In this document: piece by piece, positions 41,388 to 51,642 of the stretch
Layout: every line of letters starts with the position of its first letter
Position numbering within the stretch: position 1 is the first letter of the stretch
Source: a virus
DNA length: 64,000 nucleotides
IMG/VR virus record: IMGVR_UViG_3300049855_000609
Span: 28,564 to 92,563 of that record
Strand: one strand, 5' to 3'
Notes under the pieces: generated by a model
What the model was told of the DNA's origin: nothing
Database searches by the model: none
What the model saw: only the letters and a program-made list of their open reading frames with translations
Made by a program: the position numbers and the translations under genes

Positions 41388-41782
41388 AGATATTCTTTGT
41401 TTGGATATGCTTTATTAAAAATGATGATGAAATCTTCCAGGGTCATGTGCACCAGGCTCTGGTAAGGGGTCTTTTTCTTTCCTCCCTTGCTCCTTTTCAG
41501 GTGTATCAGCACCTTGGGGGCTTTCAGCCTGGGGCCTTCCAGGAGCTCATTCATCCTGTCCTGTATGTACTGCAGTTCCCCTCCCGGGTTCAGCCCTTTG
41601 TGAATGCCTGTCTTGACCTGGATATTGACCGGGATAAAATCCAGGTCAATACCGCAGTCGTCAAGCAATTTGGAGCTTAACCTCGTAGTCTTGCATTTGT
41701 CAAATACTGTGTTTTCCCGGAACAGGATGGCCATCTCCCGTTCTCCGTTGTGTCCCTTGGTTCTGTTAGTATTACTGCTCAT
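41384..41782 (-). CDS. PD-(D/E)XK nuclease, Holliday-junction-resolvase-like
   Basis: The protein has 132 residues. The N-terminal part has the archaeal Hjc-like order of active-site residues: Glu14 in KGHNGEREMAILF, Asp46/Asp48 in CGIDLDFIPV, and Gln55-Val-Lys57 in IQVKTG. The length fits small junction resolvases. The second half is Lys-rich (LKRSKGGKKKTPYQS) and could hold DNA. Branch resolution before packaging is the expected role. A repair nuclease of the same fold cannot be excluded. It is coupled by short overlaps to the nuclease downstream and to the ubiquitin-cassette gene upstream. Confidence 0.7.
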   Translation of the reverse strand: MSSNTNRTKGHNGEREMAILFRENTVFDKCKTTRLSSKLLDDCGIDLDFIPVNIQVKTGIHKGLNPGGELQYIQDRMNELLEGPRLKAPKVLIHLKRSKGGKKKTPYQSLVHMTLEDFIIIFNKAYPNKEYL

Positions 41783-42413
41783 AGATCAGATTTTGCTGTT
41801 GTGTCATGTATTCCGTTTGTTCTTTTACAGACCTAAAGTTAGGAGCTTTGAAGGAACTCTGGAATATCCACTGGTCTACATTATCGGTCTCGAGCATATT
41901 TAACTTTTTTATCCTGGCCTCCCTGATATAAGACATAAAGACCCTCTTCACCGGAAGCAGGGCCCTGTCTTCCAGTAGCCGGTAATTCCAGATCAGGGCA
42001 AACTGGGTGTGGTCCAGAGGGCTGTCTTTTTTGATGTTGAAAACATAGTCTCCCCGGACAGCCAGGCTGAGCAGGGTGTGCTTGATCTTCTGATGTTCCT
42101 CTGTGTAGGTCTGGGCCATATAGCCTTTCATGGCCATTATCTTGTACTGCTGAGTATTATTCCACAGGCCATGAAACACCATTTTATTCATGAATGAATC
42201 CGGAAGTAAGCTGTAGACTGTATTAACCCTGCCGTAACTGGCCTTTGGTTTTTGCCACATCAGCAGTTTATCCTTGTAATCCAGCTCTACAGTCTTGCCG
42301 GTGAAGGCAGCAAACCAGGGAACATACAGGCAGGCAGAGCTGTCATACCACTGCTCTCCCCAGGTGATAGGCTGCCCACTCTCATTTTGCTGTTCAAAGC
42401 TTATTATCTCCAT
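41772..42413 (-). CDS. Protein of unknown function downstream of the E1-like gene
   Basis: I choose ATG 42413 (MEIISFEQQNESG), giving 213 residues. It overlaps the E1-like gene by 20 bases; a longer in-frame version would overlap by over 100. The chain is aromatic rich in the first half (WGEQWYDSSACLYVPWFAAFTGK, LLMWQKPK, VFHGLWNN) and helical in the second (RALLPVKRVFMSYIREARIKKLNML). No catalytic motif was found. Because it directly follows the E1, JAB and E2 genes with overlapping ends, it may be an accessory or substrate-recognition factor of that system. That is a guess from position. Confidence 0.55.
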   Translation of the reverse strand: MEIISFEQQNESGQPITWGEQWYDSSACLYVPWFAAFTGKTVELDYKDKLLMWQKPKASYGRVNTVYSLLPDSFMNKMVFHGLWNNTQQYKIMAMKGYMAQTYTEEHQKIKHTLLSLAVRGDYVFNIKKDSPLDHTQFALIWNYRLLEDRALLPVKRVFMSYIREARIKKLNMLETDNVDQWIFQSSFKAPNFRSVKEQTEYMTQQQNLIYEQ

Positions 42414-43122
42414 AGCTCGGGATTTCAGAGGTGAGTAAATCCAGCGGGATATGGTACTTCCACGAAAAGGGAAGCTCCCTGCTGTCTGGTTCTTCTTCAT
42501 TGGTCAGCCAGTTTGTTATAAAGGCTGTCATGTGGGAGGCTATCATGGCTGCTGCATGCGAGGTCTGCTTCATGGTGCATGGATCATCAGGAACATCACT
42601 GCTGTCAAACAGGGTAGCTTCATACAATTCTTCTCTTCCGGGAGTGACCAGGTAGATCTCCATGTGCTCGGCGCCAAGCCTGCCATCTATGAACAGTCCC
42701 CGATCCCCCTCTTTTTTCCATACATTGAACATGTCCCTTCTGGCCTCCATGTTGTCAAAGCAGGATGCCATTACAGGAGAGTAGATACCATGAACTTCAT
42801 CAAACCGGACTGTATAAGTGTGTATAACCTTTTCTGCCAGCATGGATACATGCTCCAGCAGGGCAGAGGTCTTTCTTTTCCCGAGGTCATCCCGGCAATA
42901 CAGCTGTCCTCCTATGTTATGCACTTCCACGGTGTCCATGTCGTAGACATAACAGCTCAGTCCTGCCCGGGACAGCAGCAGTGTCAGCCAGGATCCTATG
43001 CCTCCAGCACCACCTATGACAATCTGGGTATCATAGGCTTTCTGGAACCAGGGGGCATCCTTGAACCTGGCCCTGGTGGTACTGTGCGTGTACATCATAG
43101 CATCTTGTGGTGCTTCTCTCAT
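42394..43122 (-). CDS. E1/ThiF-like adenylyltransferase of the ubiquitin-like cassette
   Basis: The protein has 242 residues, a single ThiF/MoeB/E1-type Rossmann domain. The nucleotide loop GGAGGIGS is at residues 37-44, the acidic end of strand two is YVYDMDTVEVHNIGGQLY (Asp61/Asp63, then Asn69), and CFDNMEARR near 121-129 is the family's D-N-x-x-x-R segment. Cys182 in PDDPCTMKQTSHAAAMIASHM lies where the thioester or persulfide cysteine of E1-like enzymes is found. The expected reaction is adenylation of the C-terminal glycine of the modifier followed by transfer. The start overlaps the JAB gene stop by ATGA. It lacks the CxxC zinc pairs of MoeB, as do several minimal phage and plasmid E1s. 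Confidence 0.88.
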   Translation of the reverse strand: MREAPQDAMMYTHSTTRARFKDAPWFQKAYDTQIVIGGAGGIGSWLTLLLSRAGLSCYVYDMDTVEVHNIGGQLYCRDDLGKRKTSALLEHVSMLAEKVIHTYTVRFDEVHGIYSPVMASCFDNMEARRDMFNVWKKEGDRGLFIDGRLGAEHMEIYLVTPGREELYEATLFDSSDVPDDPCTMKQTSHAAAMIASHMTAFITNWLTNEEEPDSRELPFSWKYHIPLDLLTSEIPSYGDNKL

Positions 43123-44429
43123 AGTATACCCTCCCTTAGTTTTTGTTGAGTTAATAATTTTTCACGGAATTTTTCCAGCCCATCCACTATATCCAGCAGC
43201 ATGGGATAGGTATCCATGTTGTACTCCATATCCGATATCACAGCCTCCAGGAACTCTATAAAGAAATTCATATCGTCTTTGAAAGGAGCCCGGTTCATGG
43301 TCATGAAGGTGTCATAACACTCCGTATATTTCTGCAGGACAAAAGCTGCCGGAGAGATGATGTCTAATCTGTCTTCCAGGGCACTGGTAGCATAGTAGAG
43401 GTTATCATACAGCTCCTCTTCTCCTCCCCTCAGAAGAAACAGGATAAACTCCTTTGCCGTTTCCTCTATATCTGTCAGGTCTTTTTTCTTCTCTACCTCT
43501 CTTTCCATGTCCCTGTTAAAACTGGACAGCAGGCTGCCGGCAGTGAACCGGGGATCCTTTCTGGAGAAGTCTGTGTTTCCTACAGGTGGAAGGTCCTTGT
43601 CATCTTCGAATATCCTTTTCTGCCCCGGTTTTGATTTTGACTTATTATTGTATCCACTCTTCTTTGGAAATACGGCTTTCTCATACCCCATCTTCTTATA
43701 CCAGTCCAGCTCATCCCCCACAGCAAAAGTCTTCTTCTCTGCTTTCTCACAGACCTCTGTAACTTTCTTACGAAAGGTTTCCGGGACCAGCAGAGCCTCC
43801 TGCTCTACGATGATATTGCAGTCATAGACATACATCCTGTCCTTTTTATAGGTCAGCTCCACAGTGTCCAGCTCATAAGGCTGTCCCTGTTCATCTTTTG
43901 CCAGCCAAGGGACAGTCACTTTATCCAGCTCCACTTTGGAGTGTATGGCTATCTTCGCAGTGAAGTCCATGAAGTTGTTGACGATCAGGGACAGGTAATA
44001 AAAGTGGTTCACGCAGTTGTCTTCCAGCTCTTCCATGTCTGTGCCACTGAAAAACACCCTCATTACATTATGGGAGTGGATGTGGCCGATGCTGAGCTTT
44101 CCATCCTGGTAATCTTTTTCCACCTGGGGATCACATTCATCGAAATACTGCATCAGCTCTCCCATGTTCTCATACTCGGTATAGGCAGAGCTTCCCTTGT
44201 CCATGGGGATGATGTCCTCCAGGATGATCTTAAATTCCCCAGGATTCTTGATACTCCCCACTGGCCGGAATAGTAGTATCCCAGACCACTCCTCCTTCGG
44301 TATCATGTGGCACAGGTACTTCACTTTCTGCAGGAAGCTTTCCGGCATCTGGATATCTACGATAGGCTTTAATTGCACTGTTTCTATAGAGGTTGAAGTC
44401 GGTTTCCTCTTTGATTCTGTTGTTGACAT
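43119..44429 (-). CDS. JAMM/JAB-domain metalloprotease of the ubiquitin-like cassette
   Basis: The protein has 436 residues. The JAB domain occupies about residues 25-190. Glu46/Glu47 lie in PKEEWSG, and the metal motif GHIHSHNVMRVFFSGTDMEE gives His118-x-His120-x7-Ser128-x2-Asp131, a perfect H-x-H-x7-S-x2-D. Such enzymes cleave after the C-terminal glycine of ubiquitin-like proteins, either maturing them or removing them from targets. About residues 255-300 form a Lys/Ser-rich linker, and the C-terminal 150 residues are helical and acidic with no recognised fold. The first 200 bases are also read in another frame as the end of the E2-like gene, and that overlap includes the JAMM glutamates. 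Confidence 0.9.
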   Translation of the reverse strand: MSTTESKRKPTSTSIETVQLKPIVDIQMPESFLQKVKYLCHMIPKEEWSGILLFRPVGSIKNPGEFKIILEDIIPMDKGSSAYTEYENMGELMQYFDECDPQVEKDYQDGKLSIGHIHSHNVMRVFFSGTDMEELEDNCVNHFYYLSLIVNNFMDFTAKIAIHSKVELDKVTVPWLAKDEQGQPYELDTVELTYKKDRMYVYDCNIIVEQEALLVPETFRKKVTEVCEKAEKKTFAVGDELDWYKKMGYEKAVFPKKSGYNNKSKSKPGQKRIFEDDKDLPPVGNTDFSRKDPRFTAGSLLSSFNRDMEREVEKKKDLTDIEETAKEFILFLLRGGEEELYDNLYYATSALEDRLDIISPAAFVLQKYTECYDTFMTMNRAPFKDDMNFFIEFLEAVISDMEYNMDTYPMLLDIVDGLEKFREKLLTQQKLREGIL

Positions 44430-45585
44430 AACTTACAAGATTAGGATTGATTAAATAGTTGGGTCTTTGCTGGTTCTGATGATCTTCAAAGTCCTCCGGA
44501 ACAGAGACAGAGAAGATGACCTCTTTTCCCTGGAAATACAGGAAGTTCTGGAAATGAGACAGATCAGGGATGATGCTGTCACCCTGGCTGTCGTTCATAG
44601 TACGATACTCTCCACCTACCATAATGCACAGGGGATTTATTCCCACTGCTTCTTCATAGGCTTCCGATATCATGTCTACTCCATAGAGTTGGTAAGCCTC
44701 CTGGTTCTGTGCTACTGGATAAACAGTTATACAGGTCTCCGGCCCCTCTCCTTCAGAGAAATCTATGACCTCTACATGAACATTGGTCCTTATTGCAGGA
44801 ATACAGCCATGAGCAACAACCTCTGTTGTCATCAGCATTTTCCAGTGCTGATAATAATTCTCCATTTGATCCCTTGTAAAATAAATAAGGCTTCGCGTTT
44901 TCATATTGGCATTTATATTTCCAAGTTTGTCTATGTTCCGGTAAGGTACTCCTTCCAGGGACTCCCACTCCATCATATCTTTTATGTGGATCAGGATCAT
45001 CTGAAAGAGGTCACAGTCAAAGTCATTGCCTATGTCCACCATCATATCCCGGATATGGCCCTCTCCCAAACAGAAGTTACACCATTCATTCTGGTAATTA
45101 TGATAAGGACGATCTGGATCATCGGAGTCTTTATACCAGGAAATATGAGAATGAAAGTAGTTGTTTATCCACTCCGCTATAGTGACTGTCCCCCGGGTTC
45201 CTGACAGGTTCAGCATGGAAAGCTGTCCCTCATTTATGTCCATGTGGATCCTGACATACAGATCCCGGATAACATGCTCATTGCCATTTGAATTGGTGAT
45301 ATGCAGCTCATCAAAGTAGATGACCGGGTGAAACTGGATGTTTACCTGTCTTCTCTCCAGTACCTCATACTTGTATCCTACCAGGTTGGTCTTTTTGACT
45401 GTCTCTACTGTAGTACGGCATTCTACTGCAAGATCCCAGTTGCCGGGATAGATGTCTTCCAGGCAGGAGATGATCTGTGGGAGCAGGGTTATCCACAAGG
45501 GGTTCATGGAGCCGTCAGAGGCTTTTTCTTTTATCCATTTGCCGCTTTTCCAGACTTGCTGTAAAGTTAAATCTTTGTCTATCAT
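44230..45585 (-). CDS. E2-like (UBC-fold) candidate of the ubiquitin-like cassette
   Basis: I use ATG 45585 (MIDKDLTLQQVW), giving 451 residues. The longer frame would start inside the upstream terminator. Residues 80-180 resemble a prokaryotic E2: paired strands (NIQFHPVIYFDE, LYVRIHMD), then SGTRGTVTIAEWINNYFHSHIS (His145, His147), and 25 residues later WCNFCLGEGHI with Cys172. In E2 enzymes an H-P-x-[IV] motif precedes the catalytic Cys-Leu in the same way. The HSHIS...FCLG version is one I associate with Bacteroidota phage proteins. The C-terminal 270 residues are mostly strands and have no motif I know; they may recognise targets. The fold call is inference, while its place between Ubl and JAB genes supports it. 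Confidence 0.7.
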   Translation of the reverse strand: MIDKDLTLQQVWKSGKWIKEKASDGSMNPLWITLLPQIISCLEDIYPGNWDLAVECRTTVETVKKTNLVGYKYEVLERRQVNIQFHPVIYFDELHITNSNGNEHVIRDLYVRIHMDINEGQLSMLNLSGTRGTVTIAEWINNYFHSHISWYKDSDDPDRPYHNYQNEWCNFCLGEGHIRDMMVDIGNDFDCDLFQMILIHIKDMMEWESLEGVPYRNIDKLGNINANMKTRSLIYFTRDQMENYYQHWKMLMTTEVVAHGCIPAIRTNVHVEVIDFSEGEGPETCITVYPVAQNQEAYQLYGVDMISEAYEEAVGINPLCIMVGGEYRTMNDSQGDSIIPDLSHFQNFLYFQGKEVIFSVSVPEDFEDHQNQQRPNYLINPNLVSYVNNRIKEETDFNLYRNSAIKAYRRYPDAGKLPAESEVPVPHDTEGGVVWDTTIPASGEYQESWGI

Positions 45586-45599
45586 GGCTGTTAAATAAA

Positions 45600-45628
45600 A
45601 GGGATGCCGCACATTATACGGCATCCCT
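45600..45628 (-). terminator. Rho-independent terminator behind the ubiquitin-like gene
   Basis: A perfect 10-bp GC-rich stem (AGGGATGCCG / CGGCATCCCT) has a 9-base loop and is followed on the - strand by TTTTATTT. It lies 18 bases after the stop of the Ubl gene and before the E2-like gene. It should make the modifier message more abundant than the enzymes behind it. Confidence 0.88.
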
Positions 45629-45646
45629 GTGATAAAATCAGGTTTG

Positions 45647-46189
45647 TTATCCTCCCATTTCCATTCTGAGGTCTTCAGCTTCCCTGGCCAGCTGTTCCAT
45701 GGTCAGCTCAGCAGCTTTTTGGGCCACTTTCTGCATGGAATCTTTTTTGGGTGCTTCCTTTACCACCGGTGCAGTGGGTTTCAGGGAAACAGCACCAGGA
45801 AAGGTGTTCACCAGTTTACGGAGTTTCTCCGTAGATTTCCTGGTATAGTTGTCTCCCTTGTTAAAATGCTTCAGGGCAGCATCTCCATATTTTTCAATGG
45901 CAGCCTGGATGAACTGCTTGCACTGCTTGTGAGGCCATGTGGAGGCATCTACACCGGACTTGGTCTTCTCCGGCATCAGATAGATGAGGAAATCCCCTTC
46001 CGGCAACACAGACTCGTTTACCGTGAAGGCATTCTTGGAGGTCCTCTCTACAGCAGTCATGCCGTCATAGGATACACCGTTGTCATCCATGTCATTTTTG
46101 AGGTCTCCCCAGGTTTTGGCAGAGGACGGGAAAGTTACCTTTCTGTTATTCCCTCCCGTAGAGAATACAGTTACATTACGTTGTGCCAT
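45647..46189 (-). CDS. Ubiquitin-like modifier with C-terminal Gly-Gly
   Basis: The protein has 180 residues from ATG 46189. Residues 1-78 have beta-grasp character: RNVTVFSTGG and KVTFPSSA strands, a helix KTWGDLKNDMDDNG, then strands MTAVERTSKNAFTVN and GDFLIYLMPEK. A region with Cys90 and a Lys/Ala-rich helical segment (residues 85-170) follows. The last residues read RMEMGG and then TAA, so the chain ends exactly in Gly-Gly, as mature ubiquitin-like proteins do and without needing processing. Directly downstream lie E2-like, JAB and E1-like genes. The long linker before the Gly-Gly is unusual; most modifiers end soon after the beta-grasp fold. A strong terminator follows the gene, suggesting high expression. 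Confidence 0.82.
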   Translation of the reverse strand: MAQRNVTVFSTGGNNRKVTFPSSAKTWGDLKNDMDDNGVSYDGMTAVERTSKNAFTVNESVLPEGDFLIYLMPEKTKSGVDASTWPHKQCKQFIQAAIEKYGDAALKHFNKGDNYTRKSTEKLRKLVNTFPGAVSLKPTAPVVKEAPKKDSMQKVAQKAAELTMEQLAREAEDLRMEMGG

Positions 46190-46222: not shown

Positions 46223-47176
46223 TCAGATCGATTGGAGAAACTCCATAAGCAGGGCTTTATCTGTCTTGTACAGCTGTGCAGGATCTTTACCGGGCAGAGT
46301 GAGTATCTCTGTGGGATGGATGGCTGATAGGTCTTGGTGGACCCTGAGTGCAGCCTTGATCCCGGCTTCATCTCCGTCAAAGAGGATCTTCCAGGTCTTG
46401 AACCCCATAAGCGGGGTCAGCAGGTCTGTATGAGGGATCATACCCTCATTCTGGAACCAGATCACACTGTGGACACCGAGGTTTCTGAGTACCCGGCAGT
46501 CCTTGTAGGACTTGGTGATGACCAGGACCTCTCCGTACTCCTCTATGTTAGTAATATTTCCGATGTCATCCTGTGTGCAGTTGGTCAGAAACCGGTGATC
46601 CCTGTTTGTGGGCCGGTATACTTTGGTGTGGACACCGAATTCGGTATAAGCATAGCATATGTCCACCGGCCTCACTACTATAAAGGTCTTCAGCTTCCGG
46701 CTGAAGAACTTATACCATACCAAGGCAAATACCCTGTCTTCCATGAGCTGTGCGGTGGTGATGTCATACTTCCCCCAGTATTCGATATCCCGGGGTTCCC
46801 AGAGCCTGGTCCTGAAAGTAATAGGATGGGACTGTGCCTTTTCTTTTTCCGTGGGGATAACAACAGGGAACTGCTGTCCCCGGAAGCTATCTGAGATCAG
46901 CTTCAGTGTCTTGTCAAAGGGGAGATGTCCGTATTTACGGCTTACCATGTCAAAACAGTCTAAAGGCTTTCTCAGGAAGGCAAAGTCCTTGAACATCAGC
47001 TTGCCGCCTACCCATTCAAAGAAACAACCAGGGTGTTTGTCTTCCCTGATCGGGGAGTACACCTTCTCATAGCAGACTATGGGATAGCCGGTGACCAGCT
47101 TCTCCAGGATCAGCTCCTGGGGGATGGTATCCAGTATCTCCTGCTTGCTTAGGGAGGATTCTTCGTATGAGTACAT
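46223..47176 (-). CDS. dnaG: DnaG-type primase with TOPRIM domain
   Basis: The protein has 317 residues, much shorter than bacterial DnaG. The N-terminal part has YSPIREDKHPGCFFEWVGGKLMFKDFA (residues 40-66), the primase P-x-R-x-D-x-x-P-S-F region without the zinc-binding CHC2 cysteines. The TOPRIM core follows: EEYGEVLVITKSYKDCRVLRNLG (Glu at 216, with Lys222 where the usual E-G-x-x-D lies), ILFDGDEAG (Asp267, Asp269) and GKDPAQL. It would lay RNA primers at the phage fork together with the DnaB-like helicase. The domain set matches crAss-like phage primases. The E-x-x-[KR] variant at the first motif is slightly unusual. Confidence 0.88.
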   Translation of the reverse strand: MYSYEESSLSKQEILDTIPQELILEKLVTGYPIVCYEKVYSPIREDKHPGCFFEWVGGKLMFKDFAFLRKPLDCFDMVSRKYGHLPFDKTLKLISDSFRGQQFPVVIPTEKEKAQSHPITFRTRLWEPRDIEYWGKYDITTAQLMEDRVFALVWYKFFSRKLKTFIVVRPVDICYAYTEFGVHTKVYRPTNRDHRFLTNCTQDDIGNITNIEEYGEVLVITKSYKDCRVLRNLGVHSVIWFQNEGMIPHTDLLTPLMGFKTWKILFDGDEAGIKAALRVHQDLSAIHPTEILTLPGKDPAQLYKTDKALLMEFLQSI

Positions 47177-48361: not shown

Positions 48362-49093
48362 CTATTGTCCTTCGTAATACTTTTTGATGTCTGCTACCAG
48401 CACCCCTAAATCGTTGGGGATGGTTATTGGCAGCATACCCGGGGCTGATTTGGCTCCGGGAGTCTCTCCATCGTCATTGGTCACAAAATACCTTTCCACC
48501 TTTTTATCGGCACCGGTTCCTGTTACCCTGGATTTTCCCACCAGGGTAATGTCAAACTTGCCACCGGGAGTCAGGTATTCATCCACCATCTTGCCGGTGG
48601 TCTTCATCTGGTACTCCATCCTGGTCTCATCCACACCGGTTTTTACTGTTTGGTAGTGGGCCAGAACAATAACATTCTTGTTGTCGATCTTCTCCAGGGT
48701 CTTGAATATGGCCCCGATGTCATAACCGATCTTTTTGGGTGCATCCCAGCCCTGTTTGAGGGCATTGTCCATGAACCAGTCCTGCATGATGTAGTTGAAG
48801 TCATCCAGCACGATATTCTCTATCGTGGGATGTACAGCCAGCAGGGACAACACTTTGGTTATCTCCGCGGCATTGTTGGAGATGAATCTCCTGGCTTTGT
48901 TCAGAGATGCCGGATCTGAGTTCCTGGTGGATGGATACTGTTTTGCTGAGCCGGGAAACGGAAGCTCTTTGGAGGTTACAGTGATGAGGTAGGTCTTCTC
49001 CGGGTCTAACCCGACAATTCCCAGGGCCTCATTCTTACCTATGGAAGTGGATTTCCCGAATCCACTATGAGCTAAGACTAAAATTTTGGACAT
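48362..49093 (-). CDS. RecA-like ATPase, Sak4/AAA_24 type
   Basis: I start at MSKILVLAHSGFGKSTSIG (243 residues); an upstream in-frame extension overlaps the helicase gene by over 100 bases. The P-loop SGFGKST carries the key Lys14. IENIVLDDFNYI (about residue 95) is the Walker B strand, and NKNVIVLAHYQTVKTG is a sensor-like strand. The layout matches phage ATPases of the Sak4/AAA_24 group, which promote single-strand annealing recombination with SSB. A RecE-like exonuclease is encoded at 40.3 kb, so a two-component recombination system is plausible. The gene overlaps the DnaB-like gene by 29 bases. Confidence 0.8.
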   Translation of the reverse strand: MSKILVLAHSGFGKSTSIGKNEALGIVGLDPEKTYLITVTSKELPFPGSAKQYPSTRNSDPASLNKARRFISNNAAEITKVLSLLAVHPTIENIVLDDFNYIMQDWFMDNALKQGWDAPKKIGYDIGAIFKTLEKIDNKNVIVLAHYQTVKTGVDETRMEYQMKTTGKMVDEYLTPGGKFDITLVGKSRVTGTGADKKVERYFVTNDDGETPGAKSAPGMLPITIPNDLGVLVADIKKYYEGQ

Positions 49094-50090
49094 GTTGTTC
49101 AGCTTTTTTGTTATGAATGCTCTCGAATGTGTTCCTGTTTCCGAACATATTGGTCTGGATATGCCGCGGGCATTCTGTGTCACGGCTGTCTACCAGGTGT
49201 ATGCTTCTGTACTTCGGATACAGCAGTTTTCCTCCTTGTCCTACCAGGTTCAGGCCAAAGTGCTTGGCCAAATTGTACTTGTCGTCATTGGGGTTGAACA
49301 TCGTGATCAGGTAGTTGGCCTCTTCACTGATATTACCCGAATCCTTGACATCATCCCCATTCGGATACAGGCAGTCCTTCATGTACTTGATCCTTTCAAT
49401 GTTGGACATGCTCCTGTTCAAATGGACAATGTCCACGAAGATGAATTTACACCAGTTGCGGAGTTCCACCTGGTATTCCACCATCTTGTCCATGTTCTCT
49501 TTGAGAGTATACCCTCTTTCTTTATTCATCTTTCGAATGTGGTCTAAGATGACTATCAGGGTCTTGTCCGGATCATGGGGCTTATAGCCTACTATCCTGG
49601 CTCTCTCTTCCTTTTTCTTGTTCTCTCCTACATGAATGTACTTCTGCTCGATAAACTCCCCATGTTCCCTGGCATAGGAAAGCAAATAATTACGGATACC
49701 GGTGGGATTATCCCTCTGCTCTATGAAGTCCACTCTCCCTCTTTTCAGCTTGATCCCATTGTCATCATATTCTCCGAACAACGGGATTATCCTGTCTTCA
49801 TAGATCTTAAACAGGATCTCTCTGTGTTCATCCATCACCGGCACCAGTTCCTTGGTCTTGGGGTCTACCAGCTTCCCCATCAGGTAATCCGGCCCTATCT
49901 CATAGGTCTGGCCATTGTAGTGCCTGAATGCTGTCAGGTCATGGTCATGCCAGAAGAAGAAGCCGGCCAGCTTGAATTCCTTCTGTACCCGGTCAATCTC
50001 AAAGGAATAGTAGATCCAGTCCACATCCTTCTCCGGTGCCAGCACATAGGGTGACAGCAGAAAAGCAAAGTCTACCAGGGTGGTCTTACC
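49065..50090 (-). CDS. dnaB: DnaB-like replicative helicase, exon 2
   Basis: Exon 2 supplies 341 residues beginning GKTTLVDFAFLL, the second half of the P-loop. Downstream, DVDWIYYSFEIDRVQKEFKLA corresponds to the helicase strand and acidic H1a motif (Y-F-S-L-E-M in DnaB). CKFIFVDIVHLNRSM holds a Walker B-like Asp, and VKDSGNISEEANYLITMF matches the D-S-G-x-I-x-x-[DE]-A-D-x-V-[IL] motif H4. Joined to exon 1, the spliced protein has 387 residues, about the RecA-like C-terminal domain of DnaB without the N-terminal primase-binding domain. It should unwind DNA ahead of the phage polymerase. The reading frame is preserved only by precise removal of 824 intron bases. Confidence 0.85.
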   Translation of the reverse strand, partial: GKTTLVDFAFLLSPYVLAPEKDVDWIYYSFEIDRVQKEFKLAGFFFWHDHDLTAFRHYNGQTYEIGPDYLMGKLVDPKTKELVPVMDEHREILFKIYEDRIIPLFGEYDDNGIKLKRGRVDFIEQRDNPTGIRNYLLSYAREHGEFIEQKYIHVGENKKKEERARIVGYKPHDPDKTLIVILDHIRKMNKERGYTLKENMDKMVEYQVELRNWCKFIFVDIVHLNRSMSNIERIKYMKDCLYPNGDDVKDSGNISEEANYLITMFNPNDDKYNLAKHFGLNLVGQGGKLLYPKYRSIHLVDSRDTECPRHIQTNMFGNRNTFESIHNKKAEQHVQNFSLSS

Positions 50091-50914
50091 CAGTGTGTTA
50101 TCTTGCAAGCTCTTTATCCTGCAATTCTGTGGCTTCTTGTTAAGTTATTACCACAGCTCAGACTATATCATCAACTACTTTCATTGTAGTTGTTGGGCGC
50201 TCTTGTCAGCTTCATCACCGTTCTGGTGGTATGCTGTTAGTCGTTGAACCTTCTAAACATTCCTGTTTAGCTTGGCTGCTGATTGACCTCTCCAGGTTTT
50301 TCCAGCAATTCACCCAATTTTACAAGGTCAGTGTATTGTTGTTTAAAATACCACTTATATCCCTTCATTTGTTGGTAGATTCCTCTCAGTACCCTTTGTA
50401 CAGCACTTTTGTCAATACTATGTGCAGTACAGGCCTTTCTAATAGACTCATACTCCACAATTTCTCCTGTTGCAATGTGTACCCCTATTACTGCTTTTGC
50501 GCAATTAGGCTTTAACCCCTCCTGATACAGCCGCAGTCTTGTTTCTGACATCTTCTTTTTTGAAGCCTCAGATGGGGTATTGTTTATTACATCAGTAGTG
50601 ATATTAAACTCTGGTTTATACAAATTGACAAAGAACTGTTCTCGTACTACAAGATCCTCTGTAAACTCTAAGATGAATAGCTTAAAAGCTTTCATTCCAT
50701 GAATTATAGCTGATCCCTGCAGCCTCGAGTTTTGATGTTTGCCATGCTTCAACAAGCTAAAATGTTTGTCTCTTCTTCCTCCAATATTAGTGGAGCTTCC
50801 GATATACATCTGACCTGTTATTACATTTTTAATGGCATATACACCTTTGTTTTGAAAATCTACCATCTCGTAAAGGTAATACTAATAGCAGTACCAAACA
50901 AGTTTTCTTCTTTT
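50091..50914 (-). other. Group I intron in the P-loop of the DnaB-like gene
   Basis: The 824-base insert separates PKV from GKTT. On the - strand it carries the group I core signatures GGTTCAACGACTA (50238-50250, R element with one P7 strand) and GATATAGTC (50161-50169, S element with the other P7 strand), about 70 bases apart. It ends with G directly before exon 2, and exon 1 ends in T, as group I splicing requires. A GIY-YIG endonuclease gene occupies its 5' two thirds. Exact ends are inferred from the restored frame; the P1 pairing could not be fixed unambiguously. Confidence 0.88.
50267..50866 (-). CDS. GIY-YIG homing endonuclease (intron-encoded)
   Basis: The protein has 199 residues. 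GVYAIKN (8-14) and MYIGSSTN (20-27) are the two name-giving motifs, with Arg31 (GGRRDKH) and HSRLQG-type residues further on. The C-terminal part holds a NUMOD-like DNA-binding repeat (HIATGEIVEYESIRKACTAHSIDKSAVQRVLRG...GYKWYF). The enzyme would cut intronless copies of the helicase gene at the P-loop codon junction and so spread the intron. Its stop lies just before the group I core, which keeps coding and ribozyme sequence separate. Confidence 0.92.
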   Translation of the reverse strand: MVDFQNKGVYAIKNVITGQMYIGSSTNIGGRRDKHFSLLKHGKHQNSRLQGSAIIHGMKAFKLFILEFTEDLVVREQFFVNLYKPEFNITTDVINNTPSEASKKKMSETRLRLYQEGLKPNCAKAVIGVHIATGEIVEYESIRKACTAHSIDKSAVQRVLRGIYQQMKGYKWYFKQQYTDLVKLGELLEKPGEVNQQPS

Positions 50915-51052
50915 AACCTTGGGGGCAGCAGCTATACCATAGATGGAGGATTTCTGAATACCATTCAGGGCTGCTTCCAGCTCCGGGATACCCATAGGCA
51001 GTCCCACGGCTTTGCCCTGCTGGCCTCTTTGAAAGGCTGTCTTGAAATTCAT
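50915..51052 (-). CDS. dnaB: DnaB-like replicative helicase, exon 1
   Basis: Exon 1 has 46 codons, from MNFKTAFQRGQQGKAVGLPMGIPELEAALNG to GIAAAPKV, the first half of the P-loop. G-L-P-x-G-[IF]-P-x-L-x-x-x-L-x-G followed by a strand and A-A-x-P is how DnaB C-terminal domains begin. Without splicing, translation would run ten codons into the intron and stop. The ATG overlaps the stop of the upstream gene (TATGA). Confidence 0.85.
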
Positions 51053-51642
51053 AGGTCCTCCTCTTTAATAAGCCCTGACTGAAACCGGTTCTGTTCCGTG
51101 ATACCCTCCTTCTTGTTCCTCCTCGCGATCTCGATGTACTGTTCCAGCCTGGAGGATTTGGCTGAAGTCCCCGCTGCCCTGTTCATCTTGGAGATAAAAT
51201 ACTCCGCATTCTGCATGTAGGTAAGCCTTGCTGTGTCATACCTGAATTCCTCCAGGTACAGATCTGCGGCCTCCATTACTTCTTCCTTTCTCACATCGGG
51301 GTTGGCAGCAAAGAACTTCTTCATCTTCTCCACACAGCTACTGTAGGAACCACCTGCATTGGTCCTCAGTCCCATGAACAGCTCCCGGTAATCCTGGATC
51401 CAGCTCCAGGCATCTGTCGCGGTGACTCCTATGAACAGGGGGAGGTTCCACACCACCTCATTTCTCTGCTCATCCTCATAGGATCTGTCAATAATACGGC
51501 TGAAGTTGACCTGTTTCATGGTCTTCTCCGGGATGATGTCGGTTTTTATGTCAAAGAACAGCGCCAACAGGTACAGCAGACCTTCATCTGCCTCAATGTT
51601 GTGCCTCTCCAGGGTCTGAATGATCTCAGGATTGATCTGCAT
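51049..51642 (-). CDS. Replication-operon protein of unknown function
   Basis: I start at MQINPEIIQTLERHNIEADEGLLYLLALFFD (197 residues). A longer in-frame form would overlap the helicase gene by 100 bases. It is nearly all helical. Residues 70-100 (NLPLFIGVTATDAWSWIQDYRELFMGL) are aromatic rich, and the C-terminal third is basic (KMNRAAGTSAKSSRLEQYIEIARRNKKEG). Because it is translationally coupled to the DnaB-like gene, a helicase loader or primase adaptor role is an attractive guess. No motif proves it. Confidence 0.55.
   Translation of the reverse strand: MQINPEIIQTLERHNIEADEGLLYLLALFFDIKTDIIPEKTMKQVNFSRIIDRSYEDEQRNEVVWNLPLFIGVTATDAWSWIQDYRELFMGLRTNAGGSYSSCVEKMKKFFAANPDVRKEEVMEAADLYLEEFRYDTARLTYMQNAEYFISKMNRAAGTSAKSSRLEQYIEIARRNKKEGITEQNRFQSGLIKEEDL

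Follow-up and report, generated by a model that had tools for sequence, protein, structure and literature searches.

Recent work has interpreted bacterial ubiquitin-like (Ubl) pathways chiefly as immunity against phages. The Bil system is a four-gene set of a Ubl, an E2, a JAB protease and an E1, in which the JAB trims BilA before its activation; BilA contains two Ubl domains, and BilB carries a CEHH motif with the catalytic histidine after the cysteine (PMC11354881). In the PRTRC loci of plasmids, the genes run in the order ParB-E-C(Ubl)-F-B(E2-like)-A(JAB)-ThiF. This arrangement is apparently the type 6d operon described by Iyer et al., 2006, whose E2-like proteins are without the classical histidine before the cysteine (PMC1779556). 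For the TAPI/TAPK proteins of phage tail assembly, JAB cleavage at the conserved glycine of the Ubl has been proposed (PMC1779556). Here, we describe a gene set in which a phage itself would be the user of such a pathway.

The window analysed is a stretch of 64,000 nucleotides from a virus record of 92,563 bp (IMG/VR record IMGVR_UViG_3300049855_000609). Its virus is a crAss-like phage, as shown by genes elsewhere in the record: those for terminase, portal and major capsid protein match PHROG families of head and packaging, and the capsid protein shares 61% identity with that of Flavobacterium phage FpV4, with further matches to crAss001, crAss002 and numerous other crAss-like phages. An earlier note on this DNA had claimed that the replication region contains the complete set of Ubl, E2, JAB and E1, a claim well supported by synteny and the conservation of catalytic residues. 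As the note had it, the genes for the Ubl modifier, the E2-like protein, the JAB and ThiF follow one another in this order; they lie on the minus strand (Table 1). For the Ubl start, the ATG at 46189 was preferred over the TTG given in the list of open reading frames. The genes had also been described as overlapping, which holds for the E2-like and JAB genes (200 nt, window 44230-44429) and for the JAB and ThiF genes (4 nt), but not for the Ubl and E2-like genes. Across the first of these overlaps, one stretch of DNA encodes both the end of the E2-like protein and the beginning of the JAB; in relatives, the E2-like/JAB overlap has a median of 62 nt and long overlaps are common. The span given for the four-gene set, 41772-46189, holds all four genes but also includes a fifth, unnamed one, which is fast-evolving and comes next after ThiF in many relatives. 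Beyond it lie the genes for a RusA-like resolvase and then an exonuclease. The toprim primase at the other end marks the replication context and is outside the pathway itself.

Table 1. Positions of the gene set and its sequence features in the window.
Feature	Position	Strand	Evidence or remark
Toprim DNA primase, directly upstream of Ubl	46223..47176	-	PHROG 12622, E 1.2e-45
Ubl modifier precursor, 180 aa	45647..46189	-	Open reading frame, AlphaFold2 (AF2) fold, Foldseek, conservation, PHROG 15560
Ser78-Gly79 codons of Ubl	45953..45958	-	Invariant Gly, likely mature C-terminus
C-terminal Gly179-Gly180 codons of Ubl	45650..45655	-	Motif of the earlier note, not conserved
E2-like protein, 451 aa	44230..45585 (alternative start 45624)	-	HSH 145-147, Cys172 (codon 45070-45072), AF2 model
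JAB/JAMM metalloprotease, 436 aa	43119..44429	-	Prok-JAB; E47, H118, H120, S128, D131; PHROGs 16107, 21448
ThiF/E1-like enzyme, 242 aa	42394..43122	-	Pfam ThiF; GGAGGIGS loop, K84, D123, R148, Cys182 (codon 42577-42579)
Fifth gene, after ThiF	about 41772..42413	-	No Pfam family; profile present in 85 four-gene loci

A search with the ThiF gene gave matches in 78 phage records, and the same gene order behind a primase is present in crAss001 (gp80-gp74), cr85_1, cr111_1, cr106_1, cr126_1, cr128_1, DAC15, FpV4 and Dulem virus 41. Loci were gathered by scanning IMG/VR twice, with ThiF and with the E2-like protein as the respective query, and by an iterative profile search. This survey, which the earlier note had suggested as a check, found the Ubl, E2-like, JAB and ThiF genes in order in 148 loci of fetched crAss-like phages and IMG/VR contigs, some of which share one contig; a primase lies upstream in 140 of the 148. 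Where a member of the set is absent, the locus is cut by a contig end, except for one jumbo-phage locus (L011) and perhaps L163. After discounting contig ends, there are almost no free-standing members. The four proteins show correlated pairwise distances (Spearman 0.47-0.60), which fits joint inheritance. Profile searches of crAss002 (Intestiviridae) and cr56_1 (Suoliviridae) detected a primase but none of the four genes. The cassette is real and conserved, yet not universal in crAss-like phages. A ThiF scan of genome contigs returned one Spirochaetia MAG contig (3.7 kb, 36% identity), which is likely phage DNA.

Of the 124 loci with enough flank, 88 have a uracil-DNA glycosylase (UDG) gene close to the cassette, and profile searches found no UDG in two crAss-like genomes without the cassette (among L175-L178). 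We considered UDG as an obligate partner or target of the pathway and rejected it, because the window and 35 other well-flanked loci (36/124) have no detectable UDG.

The AF2 model of the Ubl (pLDDT 87) shows a beta-grasp in residues 1-73, built from strands 4-10 and 17-22, a helix (27-36) and strands 44-48 and 67-73, followed by a loop bearing Gly79 and a helical C-terminal extension. The best Foldseek matches of this model are SUMO2, ubiquitin and SUMO1 (probability 1.00), with modest E-values (best 1.4e-3) and a target-normalised TM of about 0.5-0.68. The predicted fold agrees with the beta-grasp-like N-terminus read from the sequence earlier. PDB sequence searches with the Ubl profile and with the E2-like profile returned nothing useful.

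The Ubl had further been said to end exactly in Gly-Gly, and loss of this terminus in relatives had been named beforehand as grounds for rejecting the pathway. The window's protein does end in Gly-Gly, but among 130 distinct homologues it is the only one to do so, which rules the pair out as the working end of the modifier. Relatives with the same type of tail end in ...LAREARELGY or ...AAEAAKIKRELGL, so the ...LAREAEDLRMEMGG of the window is a chance variant. Only one residue never varies in the Ubl family, Gly79 (123/123), preceded by serine in 110 of the 123. It is an internal residue immediately behind the beta-grasp, within the motif K-x-K-S-G, at a position that corresponds in the model to the terminal glycine of ubiquitin. 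A predicted beta-grasp fold (AF2, Foldseek) with a conserved glycine at its end, as looked for in a modifier of Ubl conjugation, is found in this family. Twelve homologues end 1-5 residues past Gly79 (...KIKSGK, ...KMAAGY, ...KVKSGTSI) and are essentially a bare Ubl with this short tail; the others continue for 22-213 residues. Because the invariant glycine is internal in most homologues, a processed precursor is implied. The anatomy of the Ubl suggests a protease-trimmed precursor, for which the JAB is the obvious candidate protease, and Gly79 is likely the mature C-terminus.

Many of the precursors, for example those of L003, L004 and L009, finish with a short motif of acidic and hydrophobic residues (EIDEMF is one case), and the pattern [DE][ILV]xx[MLIF][FIVL] occurs near the C-terminus in 43 of 123 homologues. 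As a speculation, these endings recall sliding-clamp-binding peptides. In cr106_1 (L006:2731-3934), an HNH endonuclease gene lies right after ...KKIKSGKF*, parting the Ubl domain from the C-terminal extension.

Both enzymes with recognisable families have intact active sites, as the earlier note had read them. ThiF, with its GGAGGIGS loop, matches Pfam ThiF (E = 4.8e-18), and its profile finds UBA5, MccB, E. coli ThiF, MoeB and Cap2 in the PDB. Residues G38, G40-S44, K84, D123, R128, R148 and Cys182 are conserved at 94-100%, with K84, D123 and R148 at 100% and Cys182 at 98%; the enzyme has both the ATP site and the conserved cysteine of an E1 for Ubl conjugation. In the JAB, the motif H118-x-H120-x7-S128-x2-D131 is accompanied by E47, and all 11 aligned relatives match Prok-JAB. 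The five JAMM residues are complete in 108 of 118 JABs, as a protease of Ubl conjugation would require; in the remaining ten, the reading frame is broken or only partly there.

Interruptions of the JAB gene at or beside the JAMM active-site codons (HSHN...FFSG) occur in at least eight relatives (L060, L068, L123, L132, L139/L142, L144, L153, L161 and probably L094). Rfam places a group I intron in the JAB gene of L060, L068, L144 and L153, and in L161 a LAGLIDADG gene lies between the JAB exons. Elsewhere in the window, another group I intron (Rfam 50142-50368, 76.9 bits) interrupts a DnaB-like helicase gene (49065-51064, minus strand) ahead of the GKTT motif; this intron contains a homing endonuclease of the GIY-YIG type.

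The designation of the remaining protein as E2-like stands in part. Its HSH motif lies before Cys172, and Cys172, His147 and Glu208 are 100% conserved in relatives; loss of Cys172 or of the ThiF cysteine Cys182 had also been named as grounds against the pathway, and both residues are kept. The order of elements in the AF2 model (helix, four strands, HSH, Cys, helix, helix) is that of a UBC enzyme. However, a Foldseek comparison of the model with the PDB gave no UBC match, and none of the family members matches a Pfam E2 family, so that we name the protein E2-like only. In the viral Foldseek library, the model matches mainly uncharacterised phage proteins, crAss-like ones included.

A protein with a similar motif is encoded by the jumbo phage Xanthomonas phage PhiXhv-12 (L011:3748-7624), in which ThiF adjoins an 892-aa protein with an E2-like HPH...SLCLG motif and a 140-aa protein ending in ...AKASGG is located upstream. 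Erwinia phage Ep032 has a near-identical E2-like protein, and no relatives of this protein were found in IMG/VR. The PhiXhv-12 locus is possibly another phage Ubl-E2-E1 set, divergent from the first and with no visible JAB.

Taken together, we favour a phage-encoded ubiquitin-like conjugation pathway and put its probability at roughly two in three. The modifier would first be made as a precursor, which the JAB would cut after Gly79, exposing the ...K-x-K-S-G end. ThiF would adenylate the exposed glycine using ATP and then probably take the modifier onto Cys182, from where it would move as a thioester to Cys172 of the E2-like protein. The E2-like protein would attach it to a target amine, and the JAB could also take it off again. 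The location of the genes, behind a primase and surrounded by genes for replication and recombination, makes DNA-replication and repair proteins of the phage or the host the likely targets. Synteny, residue conservation, the SUMO and ubiquitin matches, the true E1 enzymes matched by the ThiF profile, the bare-Ubl homologues, the gene order of PRTRC and the trimming of BilA argue for this pathway; the E2-like protein without a UBC match, an end in a single glycine instead of Gly-Gly and the modest E-values of the fold matches argue against it.

The same genes could alternatively serve sulfur transfer. ThiF would then adenylate the Gly79 end for conversion to a thiocarboxylate, the E2-like cysteine protein would pass the sulfur onward to a nucleotide, a nucleic acid or a protein, and the JAB would only mature the carrier. 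JAB proteases trim sulfur carriers in some bacteria, the E1 is of the ThiF/MoeB type without a separate cysteine domain, and the UBC fold of its partner is unproven. Among the neighbours examined, however, none was recognisable as a gene for a rhodanese, a sulfurtransferase or sulfur metabolism, and the HxH...Cys motif and strand order of the partner suit an E2 better. We consider a sulfur carrier unlikely, at about one chance in eight.

Slightly less likely again is a role in counter-defence, where the set, or the JAB alone, would strip host conjugates or divert the machinery of Ubl immunity (CBASS Cap2/Cap3, Bil). Host Ubl systems act against phages (PMC10097602; Hor et al., 2024, as cited in PMC12660748), and JAB-type de-conjugases have been proposed as counter-defence in Borgs (PMC12660748). 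Yet a full E1-E2-Ubl set exceeds the needs of de-conjugation, and the genes are part of a replication operon and kept in more than 100 phages, whereas the usual anti-defence genes are patchy. The least probable alternative is that the 'E2' is another cysteine enzyme or a scaffold that uses the activated modifier differently, as its missing Foldseek counterpart in the PDB, its length of about 450 aa and its extra C-terminal domain might suggest, but the UBC-type order of its model, and the HPH...SLCLG of the jumbo-phage protein beside ThiF at the aligned place (in an alignment that is not significant), speak against it.

If the conjugation pathway is real, a full Ubl pathway exists outside any known defence context in phages related to a dominant group of the human gut. 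A more far-reaching version, to which we give somewhat less than even odds, is that crAss-like phages possess their own complete and reversible tagging system, in which a JAB-matured modifier with a single-glycine (SG) end regulates replication and repair proteins of phage or host. If true, control of the SUMO/PCNA type would have a counterpart in viruses. Trypsin would leave a Ser-Gly remnant (+144.05 Da, calculated) on a modified lysine, so that a search for Gly-Gly would miss it. Cultured members exist (crAss001, DAC15), which makes direct testing possible. GenBank mostly lists the E1 genes as 'thiamine biosynthesis protein' and their partners as 'hypothetical protein'; other labels in the records examined are 'metalloprotease domain' and, once, 'E1 enzyme family protein'. 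Neither the crAss001 paper nor the 2021 survey of crAss-like genomes mentions ubiquitin or ThiF, and in the open-access library searched we found nothing linking crAss-like phages with ubiquitin-like genes.

Compared with the known systems, the cassette resembles TAPI/TAPK in that a phage Ubl has a conserved glycine and a C-terminal extension, but the tail-assembly genes come without an E1 or E2, while the cassette lies in a replication operon with an E1 and an E2-like gene. With CBASS it shares the E1 fold and the JAB, and weak PADLOC matches to E1-E2 proteins are confined to the E1 part; the phage E1 and E2-like proteins are encoded by separate genes, in place of the E1-E2 fusion looked for in type II CBASS. 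A PADLOC scan of 10 nearby proteins found no CBASS or other cyclase, in line with the earlier note, and no Bil partner. The composition of Ubl, E2 (here E2-like), JAB and E1 is that of Bil, and maturation of the Ubl by the JAB would be a further shared trait, but the phage Ubl has one beta-grasp domain, its E2-like partner has HSH before the cysteine and the genes belong to a phage replication operon, which sets them apart from Bil loci.

PRTRC has the Ubl, E2-like, JAB and E1 genes in the same relative order, likewise on mobile replicons. Its ThiF (hhalign 99%, 8e-18) and JAB (E 7e-5) are related to those of the phage, and PRTRC-C tails also have a glycine with a short tail, ...GAKGSYA. Alignments by hhalign of the Ubl with PRTRC-C and of the E2-like protein with PRTRC-B were not significant, though Cys-x-Gly aligned, and no protein related to PRTRC F was found. 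In contrast to PRTRC, no ParB, E or F accompanies the phage set, whose neighbours are the primase, resolvase, exonuclease and others, and in contrast to type 6d, the phage E2-like protein has HSH before its cysteine. In the PRTRC family tests (TIGR03736, TIGR03738), phage ThiF scored 42.9 bits with the PRTRC_ThiF model, far below the cut-off of 144.75, and PRTRC_C had no match in the genome record. PRTRC is the nearest known gene set without being a family match. The cassette belongs to neither PRTRC nor Bil, nor to CBASS by the tests above, but would by analogy work through chemistry like that of PRTRC or Bil.
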